From positions 310,001 to 374,000 of the forward strand of contig NZ_VYVA01000003.1 of assembly GCF_009193215.1 (NCBI RefSeq): a stretch of 64,000 nt of DNA, written 5' to 3'. The notes beneath the pieces were generated by a model that saw nothing but the letters and a program-made list of their open reading frames with translations, was not told the DNA's origin and ran no database searches. This document shows, piece by piece, positions 8,152 through 35,923 of the stretch. The position numbers and the translations under genes are program-made. Every line of letters starts with the position of its first letter. Positions within the stretch are counted from its first letter, which is position 1. This stretch comes from Flavicella marina. Its GTDB lineage: Bacteria; Bacteroidota; Bacteroidia; Flavobacteriales; Flavobacteriaceae.

Positions 8152-8754
8152 CTAATTGTATTGATTTTGTACTTTTTCTAGTGTTAGTATTCCTTTTTCG
8201 GTTGCGATACCACGAACATGGTATTCTAAATATTTTTCTAACAAATAATTCATAGAAAACAATTCGGTAGGAAAAGTGTCTATGTCTTTGATGCCCATCA
8301 TTCCTTGAAAATACACCCTTGAAATAAATGAGATGTCGATGTCACTTCTGAAATATGCATCTTTTACACCTCGGTTCAAGTTGTCGGTTACGCACTCTTG
8401 CATCACAGCAAATTGTTTGTTTCTTAATTCAGCATGAATTTTCGGGTAATATTTTTGAAGTTGAAATAGGGGTGATGATTTTTCGTCTTTTAAGTTTTCT
8501 AAAATGAATTTTTTGATTTGAAATAATTCTTCAATGGGGTTGTAGCTTAAATCACAAATACATTCTATTCCAGACGAAATACACTCGAACATACCAAAAG
8601 TGGTTTCTTGAACCAATTTCGTTTTGTTGCTAAAATGCGTGTAAATCGTTTTTTTAGAAATGCTCATTTTCTCAGCAATATCATCCATGGTAACGCTCTT
8701 AAATCCGTAGGTTAAGAACATTTCAGTTGCTGATGTTAATATTTCTTCTCTCAT
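8152..8754 (-). CDS. TetR family transcriptional regulator of the efflux operon
   Basis: A 200-residue repressor. The N-terminal helix-turn-helix is clear (VTMDDIAEKMSISKKTIYTHF, about residues 21-41). The C-terminal two-thirds is an unassigned helical ligand domain. It is the first gene of the tetR-tolC-adaptor-RND operon and is followed directly by tolC. The promoter region ahead of it carries a 9-bp inverted repeat overlapping the -33/-7 elements, which suggests autorepression of the whole operon. The ligand is unknown. Confidence 0.92.
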   Translation of the reverse strand: MREEILTSATEMFLTYGFKSVTMDDIAEKMSISKKTIYTHFSNKTKLVQETTFGMFECISSGIECICDLSYNPIEELFQIKKFILENLKDEKSSPLFQLQKYYPKIHAELRNKQFAVMQECVTDNLNRGVKDAYFRSDIDISFISRVYFQGMMGIKDIDTFPTELFSMNYLLEKYLEYHVRGIATEKGILTLEKVQNQYN

Positions 8755-8816: not shown

Positions 8817-8909
8817 AAAGTTTTTTGTGACAAATATCATTTTTTCATTTTTTGAAAAAATTGATTGTAGTCGAATAGCTTTGTTTATTTTTACAAAAAA
8901 TCTAGAATT

Positions 8910-9881
8910 TTGAGAATAGAAGAATACAAAGAAGCCTTTTTAGCATATCTACAAAAACAGATAGCGGTTACCGAACCAAAAAATTTATATGAACCTATAT
9001 CGTATATCTTAGATTTAGGAGGAAAAAGATTGCGGCCAATTTTGGTGCTCATGGGAGCCAATGCTTTTGGAGGTGATCATGAAGATGCTTTAGATGCTGC
9101 TTTGGCAGTTGAGGTGTTTCATAATTTTACTTTGCTACATGATGATATTATGGACGATGCTCCTTTGCGCAGAAGTCAGGCTACCGTGCATGAAAAATGG
9201 GATGTAAATACAGCCATTTTGTCTGGAGATGCTATGTTGATTCTCGCGTATAAATTTCTTGAAAGTTATGACGGTGCTATCTATAAAAAATTAATGCAAT
9301 TATTCAATAAAACGGCATTAGAGGTTTGTGAAGGTCAGCAGTACGATATGGACTTTGAAACCAGAAATAATGTTTCTGTGGAAGAGTACATAAAAATGAT
9401 AGGATTGAAAACATCGGTCTTGGTTGCGGCGGCTTTGCAAATGGGTGGAATCATTGCAGGAGCTTCTGATGAAGACGCTAAAAAAATATATGATTTCGGT
9501 TTGAATTTAGGACTAGCATTTCAATTACAAGACGATTATTTAGATGCATTTGGTGATGCTGCTACTTTTGGAAAGCAAGTAGGTGGAGATATTATGGAGA
9601 ATAAAAAAACCTATTTGTATATCGAAGCATTGAAACATGCAGCTCCGGCTGAAAAAGAAGAATTAGAATATTGGTACGCACAAACACTTGTTGACAACGT
9701 TAAAAAAGTGTCACGCGTAAAAGAATTGTTTGTTGCAGTAGGGAGTGATCAGTTGACAAGAAATGCGATTGAAGCTTATACTAAAAAAGCATTTTCGATT
9801 TTAGAAACCATCGCTATACCAGAGGCTAATAGTTTGGTCTTAAAACAATTTGGTGAAAACCTAATGACTAGGTCGGTATAA
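8910..9881 (+). CDS. polyprenyl synthetase family protein (short-chain prenyl diphosphate synthase)
   Basis: A 323-residue trans-prenyltransferase that condenses isopentenyl diphosphate with allylic diphosphates. Both Asp-rich motifs are intact: DDIMD at residues 78-82 and DDYLD at 208-212, with GGKRLRP near residue 38. Phe73, five residues before the first motif, suggests a C15-C20 product, but this is inference. There is no in-frame ATG before residue 48, so the TTG at 8910 is the start; a TATTTTTA box lies at 8886-8893. It is divergent from the efflux operon and followed by a tRNA. Confidence 0.9.
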   Translation: MRIEEYKEAFLAYLQKQIAVTEPKNLYEPISYILDLGGKRLRPILVLMGANAFGGDHEDALDAALAVEVFHNFTLLHDDIMDDAPLRRSQATVHEKWDVNTAILSGDAMLILAYKFLESYDGAIYKKLMQLFNKTALEVCEGQQYDMDFETRNNVSVEEYIKMIGLKTSVLVAAALQMGGIIAGASDEDAKKIYDFGLNLGLAFQLQDDYLDAFGDAATFGKQVGGDIMENKKTYLYIEALKHAAPAEKEELEYWYAQTLVDNVKKVSRVKELFVAVGSDQLTRNAIEAYTKKAFSILETIAIPEANSLVLKQFGENLMTRSV

Positions 9882-26310: not shown

Positions 26311-27030
26311 TTAATTAACTTCAATAGGTGCACAAGTTGCTCCGTTGTTTTGAAGTTGTAAACTTGCATCTGAAGGGGAGAGGTATGGAATTCCTGCTCC
26401 TAAACCTCGAAGAATAAATAGCACTCCAATTAGAAAAACAAAATAAGGGATGGCTTTTTGAATGTTGTTTCTGAATTTTATAGAAAAAAGATGCTTGAAA
26501 TAAATAATCATCGTCATTAGTGGAATGGTTCCCACGCCATACAATAGCATGTATAAAAATCCTTGCTGAGGTGTTGCCATGGCAATAGCACCAACTACTG
26601 CCATATATACCATTCCACAGGGCAAGTATCCGTTTAAGAAGCCTATTACAAAGAGAGAAGAAAAACTGTTTTTTTTCAAGCGACTTCCTAACCCTGATTT
26701 TATTCTACCTACAATTTGATAAAGAGGAGTCGTTACTTCAATTTTTCGAATCCAGTTTTTGGGCAACAGTATATAACCGACAATAATAACTCCAATGATT
26801 ATCGATAACCTCTGTTGGAACCCAGATAAGAAAAGACCTTTTCCAAGAAAACCAAACAACAGACCAATGCTTCCATATGCAAGAATTCTACCAATATGAT
26901 AAAGTGAAATTTTTATAGTTTTGGAGGCTCTCGTGTCTTTGTGTACCGGCAAAACCATTGCAATCGGACCACACATGCCAATGCAATGAAAACTCCCTAG
27001 TAGTCCTAACAGAAATGCTGAATATAACAT
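26311..27030 (-). CDS. sulfite exporter TauE/SafE-like membrane protein of the cco cluster
   Basis: A 239-residue protein with about six membrane helices, beginning GLLGSFHCIGMCGPIAMVLP; the HCxGMCGP motif is typical of the family members found beside cbb3 oxidase genes, where a role in copper handling is proposed. Another conserved turn is GFLNGYLPCGMVY. It follows ccoH by 3 bases and is the last gene of the ccoG-ccoH run. Its exact role is not settled. Confidence 0.85.
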   Translation of the reverse strand: MLYSAFLLGLLGSFHCIGMCGPIAMVLPVHKDTRASKTIKISLYHIGRILAYGSIGLLFGFLGKGLFLSGFQQRLSIIIGVIIVGYILLPKNWIRKIEVTTPLYQIVGRIKSGLGSRLKKNSFSSLFVIGFLNGYLPCGMVYMAVVGAIAMATPQQGFLYMLLYGVGTIPLMTMIIYFKHLFSIKFRNNIQKAIPYFVFLIGVLFILRGLGAGIPYLSPSDASLQLQNNGATCAPIEVN

Positions 27031-27033
27031 GTA

Positions 27034-27489
27034 TTAATAATTAATACTGTGTTGAAATAAATAAGTTTCATCTGAAACATTCCACTCTATTTTTAAGTCC
27101 CAACGGCCACTGATTAATACCTCATCAGAGATAAATTGGCTGTGTGAATTTTTGAGTGAAATAGGGATGATTACATCGAGTATTTTATCTGATGGCCTGT
27201 ATAAATAGATGGTTCCTTTTATCTTTTCAGATGAAAAATTTGTTGGGAAATTGACTGTAATTCCTTTCTCGACTCTATCGACATTGATGTTCGTTTCTAG
27301 TTTTTTTGCATTGTTTAATTTATCAATGCGCTGTTGGTATTCTAACTCATCTTTATAATAATCCTTGGCAACCAAATCGTACTCATAATTGCTGTCTGTC
27401 GTTGTTTTGATTACAAAGTACAAGATAAAACCAATAAACAGTACAAATGCAATTACGATTCCCGTTCCCCAATTAATTTTTTTCATCAT
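27034..27489 (-). CDS. ccoH: FixH/CcoH-like cbb3 oxidase assembly protein
   Basis: A 151-residue single-pass membrane protein. The N-terminal helix lies at about residues 8-28 and is followed by YDLVAKDYYKDELEYQQRIDK, the family's conserved segment, and then a periplasmic beta domain. It assists maturation of cbb3-type cytochrome oxidase. It lies 25 bases after ccoG and 3 bases before the TauE/SafE-like gene. Confidence 0.88.
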   Translation of the reverse strand: MMKKINWGTGIVIAFVLFIGFILYFVIKTTTDSNYEYDLVAKDYYKDELEYQQRIDKLNNAKKLETNINVDRVEKGITVNFPTNFSSEKIKGTIYLYRPSDKILDVIIPISLKNSHSQFISDEVLISGRWDLKIEWNVSDETYLFQHSINY

Positions 27490-27514
27490 CTTCTTGTTTT
27501 TGCGAATGGTAAAG

Positions 27515-28933
27515 TTATCTAAAACTTCTTGGTCCCATAAAGTTTGTGGTGGTAGTTTCTATCAGTTTTCCTTTTGAAAAGACTCCTATTTTTAAATTCT
27601 CTTTTGAGTCTTTTAAATGTTGACGTGGAATCTCAATAAACAAAGACCCTCCATAAAAATTTTCTTTGTCGATATCAAAATCATCTTTTCCAATTAGCTG
27701 TATCGTCCCTTCATGTGAAATTAATTCAAAATGAATGTCTTCAATTCTTTGTGAGGTTTTATTTATCAATTTATAGGTGTATACATTGCTAATAATATTG
27801 TTTTCTTTGGTTTTGTAGAGTTCACCTGGTAAACGTAAAATAGTAGCTTCCACATCGTTTCTCAAAAATAACATGGTAACCAGTACTGCTATCAAAATAG
27901 AAAGCACAGCTGTATAGCCTTTAACTCTTAAATTAAATTCAAAGGGGGTGTTGTTTTCAATTCCATCTTCAGAGGCATATCGAATCAAACCTGTTGGCAA
28001 GTTTACGTTTTCCATCATCAAGTCACAAGCATCAATACAAGCGGTACAGTTTACGCATTCTAATTGTGTTCCGTTTCTGATGTCGATTCCCGTTGGGCAA
28101 ACATGTACACATTGTCCACAATCAATACAATCGCCTTTTCCTGTTGACTCTCTGTCTTCGTTTTTCTTAAATTTGGCTCTACCTTCTTCCTTTTCACCAC
28201 GTTTGTAATCGTATGCTACATTGATAGATTTGTTATCTAGTAATACACCTTGTAGTCTACCATAAGGACACGCAATGATACATACCTGTTCTCTAAACCA
28301 AGCGAAAATAAAATAGAATACCCCTGTGAAAATCAAAAGTAACGAAAGGCCTTTTACATGTTCTTTTGGTGGATCGGTAATAATTTCAATCAGGGCATCA
28401 CTACCGATAAAATATGCCAAGAATACATTAGAAATTACAAAAGAAATTAAGAAATAAACGAACCATTTAAGGAGTCGCTTTCTGATTTTTTCTGCATTCC
28501 ATTTTTGTTTGTCTAGTCGTATTTGTGCACCTCTATCACCGTCAATCAAATATTCTATTTTTCTGAAAACCATTTCCATAAAAATGGTTTGCGGACAGAT
28601 CCATCCACAAAATATTCTTCCATAGATTACGGTGAATAGAATGATAAAGACCACACCTATTATCATTGATATAACCATCAAATGAAAATCTTGTGGCCAA
28701 AAAGGAATTCCGAATATATTGAAACGTCTCTCAAGGATGTTGAACATCAAAAATTGATTGCCGTTAATTTTAATAAACGGCGAAACCAACAATAATGTTA
28801 ACAGAAGCCAACTTACATAAGTACGATACTTGTAATACCGACCTGTAGGTTTTTTGGGGTACACCCACTTACGACCACCGTCGTCTGTCATGGTACCTAA
28901 GGTATCTCTAAAAGCTTCTTGTTTTTGATCCAT
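27515..28933 (-). CDS. ccoG: cytochrome c oxidase accessory protein CcoG (FixG/RdxA)
   Basis: A 472-residue membrane ferredoxin-type protein thought to reduce copper for cbb3 oxidase assembly. It has several membrane helices, FCGWICPQTIFMEMVF, ACPYGRLQG and two 4Fe-4S motifs (CIDCGQCVHVCPTG and CVNCTACIDACD). The C-terminal part is an Ig-like periplasmic domain. It is separated from ccoP by 60 bases containing a terminator hairpin on this strand, so its expression may be lower than that of the structural genes. Confidence 0.95.
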   Translation of the reverse strand: MDQKQEAFRDTLGTMTDDGGRKWVYPKKPTGRYYKYRTYVSWLLLTLLLVSPFIKINGNQFLMFNILERRFNIFGIPFWPQDFHLMVISMIIGVVFIILFTVIYGRIFCGWICPQTIFMEMVFRKIEYLIDGDRGAQIRLDKQKWNAEKIRKRLLKWFVYFLISFVISNVFLAYFIGSDALIEIITDPPKEHVKGLSLLLIFTGVFYFIFAWFREQVCIIACPYGRLQGVLLDNKSINVAYDYKRGEKEEGRAKFKKNEDRESTGKGDCIDCGQCVHVCPTGIDIRNGTQLECVNCTACIDACDLMMENVNLPTGLIRYASEDGIENNTPFEFNLRVKGYTAVLSILIAVLVTMLFLRNDVEATILRLPGELYKTKENNIISNVYTYKLINKTSQRIEDIHFELISHEGTIQLIGKDDFDIDKENFYGGSLFIEIPRQHLKDSKENLKIGVFSKGKLIETTTTNFMGPRSFR

Positions 28934-28950
28934 ATAACTCTATAAAAACG

Positions 28951-28986
28951 AAAAAAAATCGTTGGTATTCAGTAACACCAACGATT
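28951..28986 (-). terminator. hairpin terminator between ccoP and ccoG
   Basis: AATCGTTGGT (28957-28966) pairs with ACCAACGATT (28977-28986). Read on the minus strand the stem is followed by a run of eight T. It would end or attenuate transcripts from ccoS-ccoNO-ccoQ-ccoP. Confidence 0.8.
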
Positions 28987-28993
28987 AAGAAAT

Positions 28994-29860
28994 TTATTCT
29001 CCTTCCCATTTGTCTCCTTCTGGAGCTTTTGCATTCTCTGGGTTGGTGCCTTGTAAACTTATAACGTAGTTTGCAATTTGTTGAATTTTTTCTGGGCTAA
29101 AACTGTTTTTCCAAGCAATCATCCCTTTTCCATCACGTCCTCCATTTGAAATGGTGTTGTATACATTTTTGATACCACCACCAAGAATCCAGTATTCATC
29201 TGTAAGGTTTGGTCCGATAGAACCACGTCCATCTACCATATGACAAGCGGCACAGTTTTGCTTGAATAATTTTTTTCCTTTACTCAAAGCGCCAGCATCT
29301 GCACTAGCTTCCATATTGCTTAGGTCAATAGTTTTTACTGTTTTTTTGTACGCTTCAACTTCAGCTTTTGCGATGGCAACTTGTTCTATGTATTCTTCTT
29401 GAGTAGATTGGCCACCTAGTAGTTCGTAGTACCCTAAATAAACTCCTGCAAATACAATCGTTGCATAGAACATATACAGCCACCATGGTGGTAGATCGTT
29501 GTCAAGCTCCTTGATACCATCGTAATCGTGTTCAAGAATAATGTCTTTCTCTTCACTTATAGGTTTGGTTTTTGAGAGTGCTTGTACTAAGCTTTTCCAA
29601 TCTTTTATTGAATTCGCTTCTTTTTTTGCATAATAAGCAGCTCTTTCTTCTTCAGAAATATGATCTGTGTAAAGGTTCTCTGAAGCGACTTTTATTTTTT
29701 CAATCACCACCAAAGCTAAAATCACGATTAAGTAAAATGCTGCAATTGAGGGGTGAGTAAATCCAAGTTCATCGCCAGGGGTCATGAGTTCGGTTATAAC
29801 GAATACTACCAAAAATATTGAGAATATTCTAAGAAACGGAGCTGGTAGTTTAGTTTTCAT
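28994..29860 (-). CDS. ccoP: cbb3-type cytochrome c oxidase subunit III (one haem)
   Basis: A 288-residue membrane-bound c-type cytochrome that passes electrons to the catalytic subunit. It has helices at about residues 12-27, 38-55 and 127-147, then one cytochrome c domain with CAACH (Cys203, Cys206, His207) and a distal Met in KGMIAWKN. Proteobacterial CcoP has two haem motifs; only one is present here, as is common in Bacteroidota. It overlaps ccoQ by 11 bases. Confidence 0.94.
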   Translation of the reverse strand: MKTKLPAPFLRIFSIFLVVFVITELMTPGDELGFTHPSIAAFYLIVILALVVIEKIKVASENLYTDHISEEERAAYYAKKEANSIKDWKSLVQALSKTKPISEEKDIILEHDYDGIKELDNDLPPWWLYMFYATIVFAGVYLGYYELLGGQSTQEEYIEQVAIAKAEVEAYKKTVKTIDLSNMEASADAGALSKGKKLFKQNCAACHMVDGRGSIGPNLTDEYWILGGGIKNVYNTISNGGRDGKGMIAWKNSFSPEKIQQIANYVISLQGTNPENAKAPEGDKWEGE

Positions 29861-30056
29861 ATAGATTGTTTTTTGTGTTTTGTAATGCGTCTTTTTCGAA
29901 AGGAATTTGACTTACTTTATCTAAATATTCTTTTTTTGAACTGAATACCCACCAAAACAAGGCAGTGAAGAATATAAAGAAAATCAAAAGTGATATGATA
30001 GGATATATTTCGATTCCTTCTATTTCAGTCATATGGTGTTTTATAAATTTCAACAT
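29850..30056 (-). CDS. ccoQ: CcoQ/FixQ-like subunit of cbb3 oxidase
   Basis: A 68-residue single-helix protein (helix at about residues 18-40, YPIISLLIFFIFFTALFWWV) typical of CcoQ, which stabilises the oxidase. The ATG at 30056 (MLKFIKHHM) is preferred over the second Met at residue 9 because homologues keep this N-terminus. It lies between ccoNO and ccoP and overlaps ccoP by 11 bases. Confidence 0.88.
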   Translation of the reverse strand: MLKFIKHHMTEIEGIEIYPIISLLIFFIFFTALFWWVFSSKKEYLDKVSQIPFEKDALQNTKNNLYEN

Positions 30057-30066
30057 GTTCTAAAAT

Positions 30067-32250
30067 TTATTTTTGTGAATCTTTTACTTTGATATCTGTC
30101 CCTAATCGTTGCAAATAAGCAATCAAAGCAACAATTTCTCTTTTGTGAATTGGTACAAACTCTTCACCTGCAGCTAAAGCAGCATTTTTCTCAGCTTCGT
30201 AATTTTCGACAAAAGAAGGGTCTTGGTGCAAGTTTTTTTCAACTTGTTGCGCTTGCGCCAATAAATTTGCTTGTGCTTCAGAAATTTCTTGTTCAGTGTA
30301 AGGAACTCCTAATGTGACCATAGCTTCCATTTTACTTTCTGTAGCTGAAGTATCAAGTGTGTTGTTTGTCAACCATTGATAACGTGGCATAATAGAACCT
30401 GGAGATGTAGACTGTGGATCGTACATATGGTTGAAATGCCAGCTATCTGAATATTTCAATCCCTCTCTATGTAAATCTGGCCCCGTACGTTTAGAACCCC
30501 ATAAGAATGGATGGTCGTACACAAATTCACCTGCTTTAGAGTATTCTCCATATCGTTCAACCTCAGAACGGAAAGGTCTTACCATTTGTGAGTGACAACT
30601 CACACAACCTTCTCTAATATATAAATCTCTACCTTCAAGCTCTAATGGTGTATATGGTTTTACACTTGTAATGGTAGGAATGTTTGAATCTATCATCAAG
30701 GTTGGAATGATTTGTACCGCTCCTCCGATTAAGATAGTAACAGTTGCCAATAACGTTAGCTTTACTGGTTTTCTTTCTAGAACCTCGTGCCAACCTTCAC
30801 CAGCCATTCTTGCTTTTCCAACTTTTTTCAATGCAGGTGCTTCAGCCAAATCATCTTCAACAGCAGATCCGGATTGGATTGTTTTTACAATGTTAAATAA
30901 CATTACAAAAGCACCGGCGATATACATAGAACCACCAATAGCACGCATCCAATACATTGGGATGATTTGTGTAACCGTTTCTAAGAAATTACCATACATT
31001 AAAGTACCATCTGGGTTGAATTGTTTCCACATAGAAGCTTGTACAAATCCTGCAACATACATTGGTAACGCATATAAAATGATTCCTAATGTACCGATCC
31101 AAAAGTGTGTGTTGGCAAGTTTCGTTGAGAATAATGTTGTCTTAAACATTCTTGGCACCAACCAATAAATCATACCAAAAGCTAAGAAACCATTCCATGC
31201 TAAGGCGCCTACGTGTACGTGAGCAACAATCCAATCTGTAAAGTGCGCTATTGCATTTACATTTTTTAAAGATAGCATAGGTCCTTCGAAAGTCGCCATA
31301 CCATATCCGGTAATCGCAACTACCATAAATTTTAAAACAGGGTCAGTACGAACTTTATCCCATGCACCACGCAAGGTTAACAACCCATTGATCATACCAC
31401 CCCAAGATGGAGCAATTAGCATTATTGAGAATGCAACACCTAAGTTTTGTGCCCAGTCTGGCAATGCAGTATATAATAAATGGTGTGGTCCTGCCCAGAT
31501 GTAAATAAAAATCAATGACCAGAAGTGAACTATAGACAATCGATAAGAGTATACTGGTCTGTTCGCCGCTTTCGGTACAAAATAGTACATCAGTCCTAAG
31601 AATGGTGTCGTTAAGAAAAAGGCAACAGCATTATGTCCATACCACCATTGTACTAATGCATCTTGAACTCCTGCATAAACAGAGTAACTTTTCATAAAAG
31701 AAATCGGAAGCTCTAAACTGTTAAATATGTGCAAAACAGCAACGGTAACAAACGTACCTAAATAGAACCAAATTGCCACATACATATGACGTTCTCTACG
31801 TTTGATAATTGTACCAATTAAGTTGGCACCAAATGCTACCCATACCAACGCGATCGCAATGTCAATTGGCCATTCTAATTCGGCATATTCTTTACTTGTA
31901 GTGTAACCTAAAGGAAGCGTAATGGCAGCAGCAACAATAATAGCTTGCCATCCCCAAAAATTGAATTTACTTAAAAAGTCACTCCACATTCTAGCTTTTA
32001 ATAGACGCTGAGAAGAATAGTAGACTCCGGCGTAAATCGCATTTCCGACAAAGGCAAATATCACTGCGTTTGTATGCAGAGGACGTAAACGACCAAAACT
32101 AAGCCAAGATATTCCGTTTGTCATGTTCGGAAAAAGAAACATAAGTGCTAAAAGCAGTCCGACGGTCATTCCAATAATACCCCAGAATATGGTAGCATAG
32201 ATGAAATTCTTGACAATTTTGTTATCGTAATAAAACTGTTGTACTTCCAT
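30067..32250 (-). CDS. ccoN: cbb3-type cytochrome c oxidase, fused subunits I and II (CcoN-CcoO)
   Basis: A 727-residue fusion. Residues 1-460 are the 12-helix catalytic subunit, with haem and copper ligands in WWYGHNAVAFF (His206), GPHHLLY (His256, His257) and IVAHVHVGAL. Residues 495 to the end carry one more helix and the CcoO cytochrome c domain with CVSCH (549-553) and a probable Met ligand in PGSIMPRYQWL. This is the oxygen-reducing proton pump with high oxygen affinity. It follows ccoS by 3 bases. Confidence 0.96.
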   Translation of the reverse strand: MEVQQFYYDNKIVKNFIYATIFWGIIGMTVGLLLALMFLFPNMTNGISWLSFGRLRPLHTNAVIFAFVGNAIYAGVYYSSQRLLKARMWSDFLSKFNFWGWQAIIVAAAITLPLGYTTSKEYAELEWPIDIAIALVWVAFGANLIGTIIKRRERHMYVAIWFYLGTFVTVAVLHIFNSLELPISFMKSYSVYAGVQDALVQWWYGHNAVAFFLTTPFLGLMYYFVPKAANRPVYSYRLSIVHFWSLIFIYIWAGPHHLLYTALPDWAQNLGVAFSIMLIAPSWGGMINGLLTLRGAWDKVRTDPVLKFMVVAITGYGMATFEGPMLSLKNVNAIAHFTDWIVAHVHVGALAWNGFLAFGMIYWLVPRMFKTTLFSTKLANTHFWIGTLGIILYALPMYVAGFVQASMWKQFNPDGTLMYGNFLETVTQIIPMYWMRAIGGSMYIAGAFVMLFNIVKTIQSGSAVEDDLAEAPALKKVGKARMAGEGWHEVLERKPVKLTLLATVTILIGGAVQIIPTLMIDSNIPTITSVKPYTPLELEGRDLYIREGCVSCHSQMVRPFRSEVERYGEYSKAGEFVYDHPFLWGSKRTGPDLHREGLKYSDSWHFNHMYDPQSTSPGSIMPRYQWLTNNTLDTSATESKMEAMVTLGVPYTEQEISEAQANLLAQAQQVEKNLHQDPSFVENYEAEKNAALAAGEEFVPIHKREIVALIAYLQRLGTDIKVKDSQK

Positions 32251-32253
32251 GAA

Positions 32254-32451
32254 TTAAGAATTTGTTAGTTGTTTTTTTGTATTAGAATTTTTTTGTGAAG
32301 ATTTTTGAACTGGTTTGTCATCAAATAAGATTCGAACCGAGGGAGTATAAGAATCATCGTATTGCCCAGATTTCACCGCTTTTATAAAGGCTGTAAAAAA
32401 AATCAAGGCTACAATAAGGCTGATAGTTATCAGTAAATAAATGATACTCAT
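32254..32451 (-). CDS. ccoS: cbb3 oxidase maturation protein CcoS
   Basis: A 65-residue single-helix protein. The helix (about residues 3-24) is followed by the conserved KSGQYDDSYTPSVRILFDD, which identifies CcoS. It is needed for cofactor insertion into the oxidase. It is first in the ccoS-NO-Q-P run, 3 bases before ccoNO. A -7 box lies 22 bases upstream and an FNR-like palindrome 52 bases upstream. Confidence 0.92.
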   Translation of the reverse strand: MSIIYLLITISLIVALIFFTAFIKAVKSGQYDDSYTPSVRILFDDKPVQKSSQKNSNTKKQLTNS

Positions 32452-32472: not shown

Positions 32473-32480
32473 CAAAAGTA
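32473..32480 (-). promoter_or_regulatory. -7 box (TACTTTTG) of the ccoS-NO-Q-P operon
   Basis: The minus-strand match to TAnnTTTG lies 22 bases before the ccoS ATG. No TTG is found at the -33 position, which would fit a promoter that needs an activator. Confidence 0.6.
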
Positions 32481-32502
32481 TCGTGGGCACCGTTTAGTAA
32501 AA

Positions 32503-32516
32503 ATGATAAATATCAT
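32503..32516. promoter_or_regulatory. FNR-like palindrome ahead of ccoS
   Basis: ATGATaaatATCAT is a perfect palindrome of two 5-base arms around 4 bases, matching FNR's TTGAT-N4-ATCAA except at the outer bases. Its centre (32509.5) is about 41 bases upstream of the start predicted from the -7 box, the usual place for a class II Crp/Fnr activator. Confidence 0.6.
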
Positions 32517-32651: not shown

Positions 32652-35048
32652 TCAACGCTTGCGATTGTTTAATGGTGTAGAAATGATATTTGTAATCACT
32701 GTGACAAATACAACCACAGAAATAGAACTTAATGGCATTAATATCGCCGCAATTACTGGAGATAGTTGCCCGGTAGTTGCAAAATAAAGCCCTACAAAAT
32801 TGTATAAAAACGAAAGGATAAAGCTAGCTTTTATCGTTGTGATTGCCTTTTTTGAAATTTTTAGAAACAAAGGCATTTTATTCAAAACATCAGCGTCGAT
32901 AATGGCATCACAGGCAGGTGAAAAAACATTTACATTTTCAGAAACAGCAATACCCACATTACTTTGGGCAAGTGCTCCTGCATCGTTCAGTCCATCTCCA
33001 AACATGACAATTTTTTCTTGGTTTAGTTGTTGTTTTTCAATGTATTTTAGTTTGTCATCTGGTTTTTGATTGAAAACAAAACTAGTTTCAGAAGGAAGGT
33101 TTCGACTCAAAAATTCTTTTTCTCCTTCGTTATCGCCAGATAAAACTGTTAGTTTATAGTGTTTGCTTAGTTTTTTAAACATTGCGAACATTCCTTTGCG
33201 GTAGTTGTTTTTAAAGATGAATTTTCCTTTGTATTGATGGTCAATATTGATGTGCACAGCCGTTTCGTTGACTTTGTCTTGTTGGGGTGCTTTGGCAAAA
33301 CTAGCAGATCCAATCATAATTTGTTGGTTACCGATTTTTGCTGTAATTCCTTTTCCGATCTCTTCTTTGAAAGAAATTAGTGCTGGTGAGCTAGTTTTGG
33401 TTTTTAAAGCCGCGTATAGCGCTCTACTTAGTGGATGATTTGAGTTTCGTAAAACAGCCGTAATGTTGGTCTGTTCTGTTGCTTCTAATTCAGTTCCTAC
33501 AAAATTTATTTTTTGTTCTTCAGGTGAGGTGATTGTTCCTGTTTTGTCAAAAATAAGCGCATTGATTTGAGCTAAGTTTTCAATGACACTCGCGTTTTTT
33601 AGATAGAATTTATGTTTTCCAAAAATTCGTATAACGTTTCCTAATGTGAATGGAGCGGATAAGGCTAAGGCACACGGACATGCAATGATCAATACTGCAC
33701 TAACCACGTTAACAGCAATTGTTTTATCTATGAAAAACCAATAACCACCTGAGATCATTGCTATTGCAAGAATCGCATAGGTGAAATATTGACTGATACG
33801 ATCGGTTATATTTTTGAATTGTTCATTTTTGTCTTTGTTGAAGACATCATTGCTCCAAAGTTGAGTGAGATAACTTTGAGAAACTGTCTTTATGGCTTCA
33901 ATTTCTATAACGCCAGACAGTTGTTTTCCTCCAGCAAATATTTTGTCGCCCGAGTTTTTAACTACAGGGTTGGCTTCACCTGTAACAAAGCTATAGTCTA
34001 TAAGCGCATTTCCTGAAATCATGATTCCATCAATCGGAATGAGCTCTTGATTTCTTATCAATAAACGATCCCCTTTTTTTACATCATATATTTGAATCGA
34101 TGTTTCATTGTCGTTTTTGATGCGAGTTACGGCTATTGGAAAATATGAAGTATAGTCTCGTTCGAAAGACAAAAAGCTATAGGTTCTTTGTTGGAAGAAC
34201 TTTCCGAGAAGTAAGAAGAAAACTAATCCTGTTAAACTATCAAAATAACCTTGTCCTAGATCAAAGAATATTTCAATAACACTTCGAACAAACAATACCA
34301 AGATTCCTAATGATATCGGTACATCAATATTTAATATACGATGCTTTAAGCCCTTGTAAGCTGAAGAGAAATAATCTTGGGCAGAGTATAAAAGCACTGG
34401 AAGTGCCATGAAGAACATGATCCATCTAAAAAAAATTTTGTATTGATTGAGCCAGTATTCATCGACTTCAAAATATTCTGGAAATGACAAAAACATGATG
34501 TTTCCAAAAGCAAAACCCGCCACGCCTAATTTGTAAATAAGGTCTTTGTTCGTTTTTTTATTTTTGTCTTTTTTTGTGTTTTCAAGACTGATGTATGGTT
34601 CGTAACCGATAGAGCTTAATAACAGTACAATCTCTTTGAGGGATATGCTATTTTTATCAAATACAATACGTACCGTTTTTTTAGGAAAATTAACCTGTGA
34701 CGATTGTATTTTCTCATTCAAACGATGCAGGTTCTCTAAAACCCAGATACAAGAGCTACAGTGTATGTGTGGGATGTTTAATGTAATGATACTTGTTGTT
34801 TCAGTATCAAATTCAAGTAGTTTTTCGGCAATCGTTTGATTATCGAGGTAATCGTATTTCCCTTGAATGTTTTCAGGGATTTTACCTGGTGACTGTTCGA
34901 AATCGTAATAAGAAGTTAGTTCGTTCTCATTTAAGATTTCAAAAACAGTTTTACAACCATTGCAACAAAAGTTTTTCTCATCAAAAAAAACAGCAGTTCG
35001 GTCGGTACATTCGGTACCACAGTGATAACAATTTTCTGTTTTATTCAT
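32652..35048 (-). CDS. ccoI: heavy metal (copper) translocating P-type ATPase, CcoI-like
   Basis: A 798-residue P1B ATPase that loads copper for cbb3 oxidase assembly. The N-terminus has a Cys-rich region (CYHCGTEC, then FCCNGC), followed by a metal-binding domain with HCSSC. Next come eight membrane helices with the CPCAL transport motif, the phosphorylation site DKTGT and the hinge GDGLND. The length and the Cys-rich start fit the CcoI/FixI group. It sits 200 bases upstream of ccoS and is divergent from a Crp/Fnr regulator. Confidence 0.94.
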   Translation of the reverse strand: MNKTENCYHCGTECTDRTAVFFDEKNFCCNGCKTVFEILNENELTSYYDFEQSPGKIPENIQGKYDYLDNQTIAEKLLEFDTETTSIITLNIPHIHCSSCIWVLENLHRLNEKIQSSQVNFPKKTVRIVFDKNSISLKEIVLLLSSIGYEPYISLENTKKDKNKKTNKDLIYKLGVAGFAFGNIMFLSFPEYFEVDEYWLNQYKIFFRWIMFFMALPVLLYSAQDYFSSAYKGLKHRILNIDVPISLGILVLFVRSVIEIFFDLGQGYFDSLTGLVFFLLLGKFFQQRTYSFLSFERDYTSYFPIAVTRIKNDNETSIQIYDVKKGDRLLIRNQELIPIDGIMISGNALIDYSFVTGEANPVVKNSGDKIFAGGKQLSGVIEIEAIKTVSQSYLTQLWSNDVFNKDKNEQFKNITDRISQYFTYAILAIAMISGGYWFFIDKTIAVNVVSAVLIIACPCALALSAPFTLGNVIRIFGKHKFYLKNASVIENLAQINALIFDKTGTITSPEEQKINFVGTELEATEQTNITAVLRNSNHPLSRALYAALKTKTSSPALISFKEEIGKGITAKIGNQQIMIGSASFAKAPQQDKVNETAVHINIDHQYKGKFIFKNNYRKGMFAMFKKLSKHYKLTVLSGDNEGEKEFLSRNLPSETSFVFNQKPDDKLKYIEKQQLNQEKIVMFGDGLNDAGALAQSNVGIAVSENVNVFSPACDAIIDADVLNKMPLFLKISKKAITTIKASFILSFLYNFVGLYFATTGQLSPVIAAILMPLSSISVVVFVTVITNIISTPLNNRKR

Positions 35049-35148: not shown

Positions 35149-35161
35149 TGACAAAAATCAT
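35148..35161. promoter_or_regulatory. imperfect FNR-like site near the ccoI promoter
   Basis: ATGACaaaaATCAT has one mismatch in symmetry. It lies directly upstream of the ccoI -7 box, where bound protein would more likely block than activate. Confidence 0.35.
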
Positions 35162-35181: not shown

Positions 35182-35195
35182 ATGATAATTATCAG
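35182..35195. promoter_or_regulatory. FNR-like palindrome between ccoI and the Crp/Fnr gene
   Basis: ATGATaattATCAG contains the perfect 12-base palindrome TGATAATTATCA (35183-35194). Its centre is about 29 bases before the predicted start of the regulator gene, which suggests autoregulation, and about 52 bases from the ccoI start. Confidence 0.5.
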
Positions 35196-35205
35196 TATTA
35201 ATGAT

Positions 35206-35213
35206 TATCTTTG
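35206..35213 (+). promoter_or_regulatory. -7 box (TATCTTTG) of the Crp/Fnr regulator gene
   Basis: A strong TAnnTTTG match 23 bases before the ATG at 35237. It overlaps the alternative upstream ATG at 35201, which rules that start out. Confidence 0.65.
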
Positions 35214-35236: not shown

Positions 35237-35923
35237 ATGGGCAACTGTCAGCAATGTATTATCAAAGAATTTAATTCACTAAGAGCGCTTTCAAATGAAG
35301 AATTGAAATGTGTGTCAAGTCATAAAAATGAGTTGAATTTCAAAAAGGGTGACGTTATTTTCAAAGAAGGAATGATGTTAAATGGTGTTTACTGCATTCG
35401 TGAGGGTAAGTGTAAGTTGACAAAATTAAGTCCGAATGGAAAAGAGCAGATTGTAAAGTTTATTAAAAACGGAGATATGTTAGGGTATCGTTCTGTTTTA
35501 GGAGAAGAGCCTGTTAATTTATCAGTGGTTGCTTTAGAAGATATGTCGGCTTGCTTTATTCCGAAAAAAGATATTTTCGATTCGATTCAGAAAAACAAAG
35601 ATTTTTCTAAAGATATGTTTAAAGTAGTGTGTCACGATTTAAAAGATGCAAACGCAACGATTGCTAATATGGCGCAGAAAACGGTTCGAGAGCGTCTGGC
35701 AGATACTTTGTTGTTTTTAGATGAGACATTCGGAGAAGACGAATTAGGTAATATCAATATCAAATTATCGCGTGAAGAAATAGCGAATGTTATTGGTACG
35801 GCTACGGAGTCTGCAATTCGTTTGTTATCTGATTTGAAGAAAGAAAATATTATTTCTTTGAGTGGGAAAAAAATAAAAATCGAAAACGCAACAGCTTTGA
35901 AAAAAATCGGAAATGGATTTTAA
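35237..35923 (+). CDS. Crp/Fnr family regulator, probable controller of the cco genes
   Basis: A 228-residue regulator. The ATG at 35237 is used because the in-frame ATG at 35201 lies in the promoter. A cyclic-nucleotide-like beta roll (about residues 20-140) is followed by a long helix and a winged HTH whose recognition helix TATESAIRLL keeps Glu and Arg at the FNR/CRP base-reading positions, as expected for TGA-N6-TCA. Cys4, Cys7 and Cys25 near the start might hold an iron-sulfur cluster, but the spacing differs from FNR. It is divergent from ccoI. Confidence 0.9.
   Translation: MGNCQQCIIKEFNSLRALSNEELKCVSSHKNELNFKKGDVIFKEGMMLNGVYCIREGKCKLTKLSPNGKEQIVKFIKNGDMLGYRSVLGEEPVNLSVVALEDMSACFIPKKDIFDSIQKNKDFSKDMFKVVCHDLKDANATIANMAQKTVRERLADTLLFLDETFGEDELGNINIKLSREEIANVIGTATESAIRLLSDLKKENIISLSGKKIKIENATALKKIGNGF

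Follow-up and report, generated by a model that had tools for sequence, protein, structure and literature searches.

The cbb3 oxidase operon and the ccoS promoter

The window analysed here, a stretch of 64,000 nucleotides from Flavicella marina, contains a gene cluster on the minus strand for a cbb3 oxidase, an enzyme that allows flavobacteria to respire at low oxygen. The first gene of the operon is ccoS (FixS; 32254..32451; Pfam PF03597, TIGR00847). It is followed by a ccoN-ccoO fusion encoding the catalytic subunits (30067..32250; PF00115, PF02433; NF011053) and by ccoQ, ccoP, ccoG, a FixH-type ccoH and a membrane gene of the DsbD_2 family (26311..30056; Pfam and NCBIfam), where the ccoQ match falls under the Pfam cut-off and the ccoP match under the NCBIfam cut-off. 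On the other side of ccoS, domain matches identify a heavy-metal P-type ATPase (32652..35048, minus strand), here called ccoI because it neighbours ccoS and fnr. The latter gene (35237..35923, plus strand) encodes an FNR-like regulator, hereafter the 35237 protein.

Class II activators of the Crp/Fnr family bind near -41.5, and the class II promoters of E. coli FNR carry TTGAT-N4-ATCAA near this position. A palindromic operator, TGAT-ATTT-ATCA (TGATATTTATCA; 32504..32515, minus strand), is located 5' of ccoS, where the window sequence contains the 14-mer ATGATaaatATCAT at 32503-32516. The -7 box of the promoter, TACTTTTG (32473..32480, minus strand), lies 23 bp past the palindrome on the minus strand, and no TTG is present in these 23 bp of the window sequence. 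Read in the direction of the operon, the order is AAAACATGATATTTATCATTTTTACTAAACGGTGCCCACGATACTTTTG, then the ccoS start at 32451. In F. psychrophilum, the TAnnTTTG box spans -12 to -5 (PMC9723704). If the ccoS box is put in the same position, the predicted transcription start is 32468 and the computed centre of the palindrome is -41.5, which is the class II position. The spacing of 23 bp and the missing TTG show that the earlier note was right in placing the palindrome about 41 bases before the predicted start and in describing a promoter without a -33 TTG.

Within the window by itself, the 14-mer is weak evidence: one match is found for 0.28 expected, and at least one occurs in 28 of 100 shuffles. 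Since this single match is near chance, the evidence for the operator rests on its conservation. A further sequence, TGATAGTTATCA, occurs at 32421-32432, inside the beginning of ccoS and downstream of the predicted start.

Conservation of the operator and of its spacing

Conservation was assessed in a family set of 61 loci, comprising 60 fetched loci, one per genus, and the window. After removal of seven loci with no ccoS or no ccoI match, the palindrome TGAY-N4-RTCA is found 5' of ccoS in 53 of the remaining 54, the sole locus in which it was not found being L076. The base preceding TGA is A in 42 of the 53 palindromes, C in 10 and G in one, so the half-site is mostly ATGAY and differs from the TTGAT of the E. 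coli box. TAnnTTTG follows 22-24 bp past the palindrome in 42/54 loci, at exactly 23 bp in 40 of them, and nine further loci have TAnnTTTA in the same place; L040 and L035 deviate. The class II spacing proposed for ccoS is thus kept across the family.

The palindrome is also present upstream in 30 of 32 further family ccoN loci, as against 0/32 for the reversed control. Palindrome and box (TAnnTTTG or TAnnTTTA) occur together in 26 of the 27 loci of one ccoN set (the miss being G040) and in four of five in another (G089). A broader scan took the best 80 of at least 589 ccoN loci, one of which was too short. Among the 79 named loci left, the 800 bp upstream of ccoN contain the palindrome in 70, compared with one for the reversed pattern, and 43 broad-scan loci have a box 22-24 bp past it when a slightly wider box pattern is used. 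The palindrome-bearing records include Flavobacterium, Tenacibaculum, Winogradskyella, Pedobacter, Chitinophaga and Cyclobacteriaceae. The search for a TGA/TCA palindrome upstream of ccoS and ccoN in relatives, which had been suggested as a check, therefore finds it conserved in all three samples.

Six of the broad-scan loci (L287, L296, L297, L306, L322 and L326) carry two palindromes exactly 22 bp apart upstream of ccoN, about two helical turns, which suggests tandem dimers in other Bacteroidota.

The gene order is conserved as well. An fnr gene divergent to ccoI, then ccoS and ccoN, is found in 52 of the 60 fetched loci; two are cut by contig ends and six differ. Among these six is G002, from the same genus as the window, where the ccoS-side site is still present at the distant ccoN. 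Close linkage of this Fnr is mainly a feature of the family, and the Fnr lies inside the fetched flank in only part of the 80 broad-scan loci.

The divergent ccoI/fnr gap

A second operator, TGAT-AATT-ATCA (35183..35194), is located in the gap between ccoI and fnr. It stands 23 bp from a putative ccoI -7 box, GATTTTTG (35152..35159, minus strand), whose first base departs from TAnnTTTG, and 11 bp from a putative fnr -7 box, TATCTTTG (35206..35213, plus strand), with respect to which its centre would be at about -29.5. A third palindrome, TGACAAAAATCA (TGAC-N4-ATCA; 35149..35160), lies over the putative ccoI box.

Gaps could be compared in 57 of the 61 loci, four being dropped for lack of a ccoI match or for a gap that was negative or longer than 700 bp. 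The palindrome is present in 55 of the 57; only the gap of the window has two, and the other 54 have one. On the ccoI side, a TTTG box is found at 23 bp in 48/55 gaps. On the fnr side, a TAnnTTT box lies at 9 bp in 34/55 and at 10-11 bp in eight (11 in the window), while six gaps have such a box at 23 bp, one of these having another at 9. Judged by these spacings, ccoI would be activated from a single operator that, in most gaps, would also overlie the fnr promoter. The gap operator of G077, G102, G011, G018 and G001 would activate both ccoI and fnr.

An FNR-like protein with a changed set of cysteines

The 35237 protein contains a Crp/Fnr sensor domain and a Crp-type helix-turn-helix (PF00027, PF13545). 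Its best NCBIfam family is NF008365 (Fnr), with a score of 96.5 bits that stays below the cut-off of 228. The AlphaFold model has a mean pLDDT of 85, but of only 60 over residues 1-10, where C4 and C7 are located. In a Foldseek comparison, the model aligns with A. fischeri holo-FNR (5e44) with a TM of 0.83, the best match being P. gingivalis 2gau. An ortholog profile run against the PDB gives seven matches under 1e-30, among them A. fischeri FNR, again after 2gau.

E. coli FNR contacts DNA through Glu209 and Arg213 of its recognition helix. The equivalent residues of the 35237 protein, E191 and R195 in the recognition helix TESAIR, are invariant in all 61 family orthologs, as are four cysteines, C4, C7, C53 and C106. 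In the alignment, C4, C7 and C106 match C20, C23 and C122 of E. coli FNR, and C53 falls at A70. None of the 61 orthologs has a cysteine aligned with E. coli C29, and the canonical four-cysteine set is thus lacking; 35 of them have a cysteine at position 29, where the protein of the window has a histidine. The same four cysteines are present in all 28 proteins of a phylum sample, three of which also have a cysteine within nine residues after CxxC. This sample consists of the 28 new loci among 30 fetched of 42 matches, G032 and G001 being also in the family set.

We refer to this arrangement as type B and to a second group of FNR-like proteins as type A. The type A set (n=20) consists of 18 of the 35-39% matches (plus one of 32%) and two proteins from the genome of the window. 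The type A recognition helix, which reads TEEQVIR in the two proteins from the genome of the window, is related to TESAIR. An N-terminal CxxCx4C is present in 16 of the 20 (three were read without the N-terminus and one is without the motif), position 53 is Phe in 20/20 and position 106 is Cys in 19/20. This reciprocal pattern suggests that in type B the fourth Fe–S ligand has moved to the beta-roll, with C53 taking its place. In the model, C53 and C106 are on strands 50-56 and 103-109. Oxygen might be sensed via the relocated ligand. Proteins with these cysteines would escape a search built on the usual FNR set of four.

The system thus resembles that of E. coli FNR in the Crp/Fnr fold, the Glu and Arg of the recognition helix, the C20, C23 and C122 equivalents, the -41.5 spacing and the hemN- and nrf-type targets described below. 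It differs from it in the absence of a C29 equivalent and the invariant C53, in an operator that reads TGAY-N4-RTCA and not TTGAT-N4-ATCAA, in the TAnnTTTG box, and in having a cbb3 oxidase as target.

A candidate regulon

Genomes were scanned with a composite of operator and box, TGAYNNNNRTCA-N22-24-TANNTTTG, using the reversed pattern as the control. Across 119 family genomes, the composite gives 1077 matches and the reversed pattern 75. The excess is seen in the 68 genomes with a close Fnr, defined as an ortholog match at E <= 1e-60 (748 against 48), and in the 51 genomes without one (329 against 27).

The genome of the window has 10 composites and one reversed match; this ratio suggests that roughly a tenth of the list may have arisen by chance. 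The composites precede ccoS, hemN (TIGR00538), nrfH followed by nrfA, bioB, a pta-like gene (an assignment just under the cut-off and from a cut sequence), a SulP/BicA-like transporter (under the cut-off), a thioredoxin and a CitMHS-type transporter. The remaining two lie before an unassigned protein and at a place without an ORF. Promoters of the same geometry as that of ccoS include hemN, nrfHA and the pta-like gene, which are FNR-like targets.

The hemN site is well conserved: among the best 30 of 82 matches by E-value, including that of the genome of the window, 28 loci have the composite and none has the reversed control. For nrfH, all 19 matches were taken, and the composite is present in three and the palindrome in eight; nrfH was therefore rejected as a conserved target.

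In the open-licence literature, with subscription papers mostly outside its scope, we found no described FNR-type operator or regulon for flavobacteria. According to PMC8510549, the Crp/Fnr homologs of its Flavobacteriales MAG lie near MalR and not FNR. The promoter grammar and the candidate FNR-like regulon given here can be tested in these bacteria.

Elsewhere in the window, TGACAAATATCA occurs at 8828-8839, in the gap between a minus-strand gene at 8152-8754, which looks like a TetR-type regulator, and a plus-strand ORF at 9051, and is without a -7 box at 22-24 bp.

Proposed mechanism and alternative readings

We consider it very probable that the ccoS palindrome is the class II operator of a Crp/Fnr-family activator, here most likely the 35237 protein, that switches on the cbb3 operon at low oxygen. 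The sequence, its spacing and conservation, the gene linkage and the candidate regulon are shown directly; from them we infer that this protein binds and activates, that oxygen is the signal, and that there is an Fe–S cluster and autorepression. At low oxygen, the protein would dimerise on TGAY-N4-RTCA at -41.5, and the dimer would recruit RNA polymerase to a promoter without a -33 element, switching on ccoS-ccoNO-ccoQ-ccoP-ccoG-ccoH. At the ccoI/fnr operator, the same protein would activate ccoI from -41.5. In the majority of the genera read, the operator centre falls at about -27.5 to -29.5 of fnr, so that the bound protein would overlap the promoter and should hold back its own gene; autoregulation would then probably be negative.

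In alpha-proteobacteria, FnrL and FixK2 control ccoNOQP. The scheme proposed here would be similar, with a Crp/Fnr protein controlling a cbb3 operon at low oxygen, and differs in the Bacteroidota protein subgroup and promoter box and in a regulator gene that is divergent from ccoI.

The earlier note had read the operon as activated by the Crp/Fnr protein encoded beside ccoI. The family-wide class II spacing, the linkage in 52/60 loci, the Glu and Arg kept in 61/61 orthologs and the FNR-like targets support this reading, and we regard the predicted activation of the ccoS operon by the neighbouring Fnr as well supported. In PMC9723704, the cbb3 oxidase of F. psychrophilum is strongly up under oxygen limitation, as are heme enzymes; the main text of that paper makes no mention of Fnr. 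Weighing against the 35237 protein are its departure from the canonical cysteine set, its score under the NCBIfam Fnr cut-off, the retention of the site in 26/28 genomes with ccoN that lack this Fnr, the two FNR-like paralogs, which could compete with it, and the composite at only 3/19 nrfH loci. The third palindrome, over the ccoI box, has no explanation in this model.

The site could be real and yet serve mainly another Crp/Fnr protein, such as one of the two type A paralogs, with the linked Fnr in a minor role. The genome of the window has 11 cNMP-binding matches, including the two type A genes (G000:C13:23957 and C13:37595; L115 3921-4625 and 17559-18263), both encoding an N-terminal CxxCx4C and one of them located about 9 kb away from the site at hemN; the type A helix is a related one, and the sites are kept in genomes without type B. 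We nevertheless regard this as unlikely, given that it is type B, not type A, that is linked to the operon in 52/60 loci, that the two type A genes here adjoin a nirB-like gene and an NMT1-family substrate-binding gene, and that the palindrome is upstream of none of the 20 type A genes. The latter count covers the 350 bp before the place aligned with residue 1, where TGAY-N4-RTCA was found in 0/20, and self-regulation of the type A genes via this palindrome was rejected on the same count.

An opposite sign, with an aerobic repressor acting on the cbb3 operon through this operator, appears very improbable. Geometry alone leaves the sign unproven, and the third palindrome does overlap the ccoI box here, but the -7 box is not covered by a palindrome centred at -41.5, the lack of a -33 TTG is as in activator-dependent promoters, and the cbb3 oxidase rises under oxygen limitation in F. 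psychrophilum (PMC9723704). Least credible of all, and rejected, is a weak RNA hairpin, formed by the inverted repeat and a T run, that ends the ccoI message or shapes the ccoS leader: the location between ccoI and ccoS and the T that predominates at positions three to six past the palindrome would suit it, but the Y and R stem positions vary independently (17 TA, 14 CG, 11 CA, 11 TG; Fisher p 0.28), pairing among the four central bases is poor, the box stands at a fixed distance, and the same motif also precedes hemN and other unlinked genes.

A probable exchange of the regulator in genomes without the Fnr

Activation by the 35237 protein would apply to genomes that have it. Of the 51 family genomes without a close Fnr, 28 have ccoN (23/29 in one search and 5/22 in the other), and 26 of these 28 keep both site and box, so another protein must serve the site there. 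A candidate is REC-Crp, a receiver fused to a Crp/Fnr domain, whose helix TESLIR is close to TESAIR. It is found in 26 of the 28 Fnr-less genomes with ccoN and in one of the 23 without ccoN (Fisher p 4e-11, uncorrected for the relatedness of the genomes). One of the two exceptions is G020, where a more distantly related protein sharing the four cysteines (L191) is encoded on the contig that carries ccoN, about 7 kb off; in the other, G048, an 82% complete genome, no REC-Crp was found. REC-Crp is also present in 25 of the 68 genomes having the Fnr, which shows that the two are not mutually exclusive; it was not found in the genome of the window.

With the site kept in 26/28 and REC-Crp carried by 26/28 of these genomes, the regulator seems exchangeable over a single promoter design, and these genomes are probably a natural example of one regulator replacing another at conserved sites. 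The breadth of the promoter rule, the candidate regulon, the changed cysteine set and this apparent swap of regulator over the same sites are additions to the earlier note.

In the three loci read (G027, G101 and G036), REC-Crp adjoins a PAS histidine kinase and precedes universal-stress-type genes. The PAS domain was compared for G101, where the heme domains of FixL and DosP are the best solved relatives and the histidine of their H-x-x-Y motif has an aligned His in this PAS. The pairing of such a kinase with REC-Crp is reminiscent of FixL-FixJ and DosP. It differs from them in the fusion of the receiver to a Crp/Fnr domain, and heme binding is here only putative, the kinase being known from three genomes and the PAS comparison from one.

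It is quite possible, if somewhat short of probable, that Bacteroidota have a second form of FNR, in which one Fe–S ligand, C29 of the N-terminal loop in E. coli, has been relocated to C53 in the beta-roll (A70 in E. coli), and that some Flavobacteriaceae lineages have exchanged it for a FixL-like heme kinase and REC-Crp acting on the same -41.5 operators. The promoter grammar would then have been kept and the oxygen-sensing chemistry swapped.

The universal-stress-type genes beside the PAS kinase and REC-Crp themselves carry TGAY-N4-RTCA operators with the same spacing (L112, L113 and L114).
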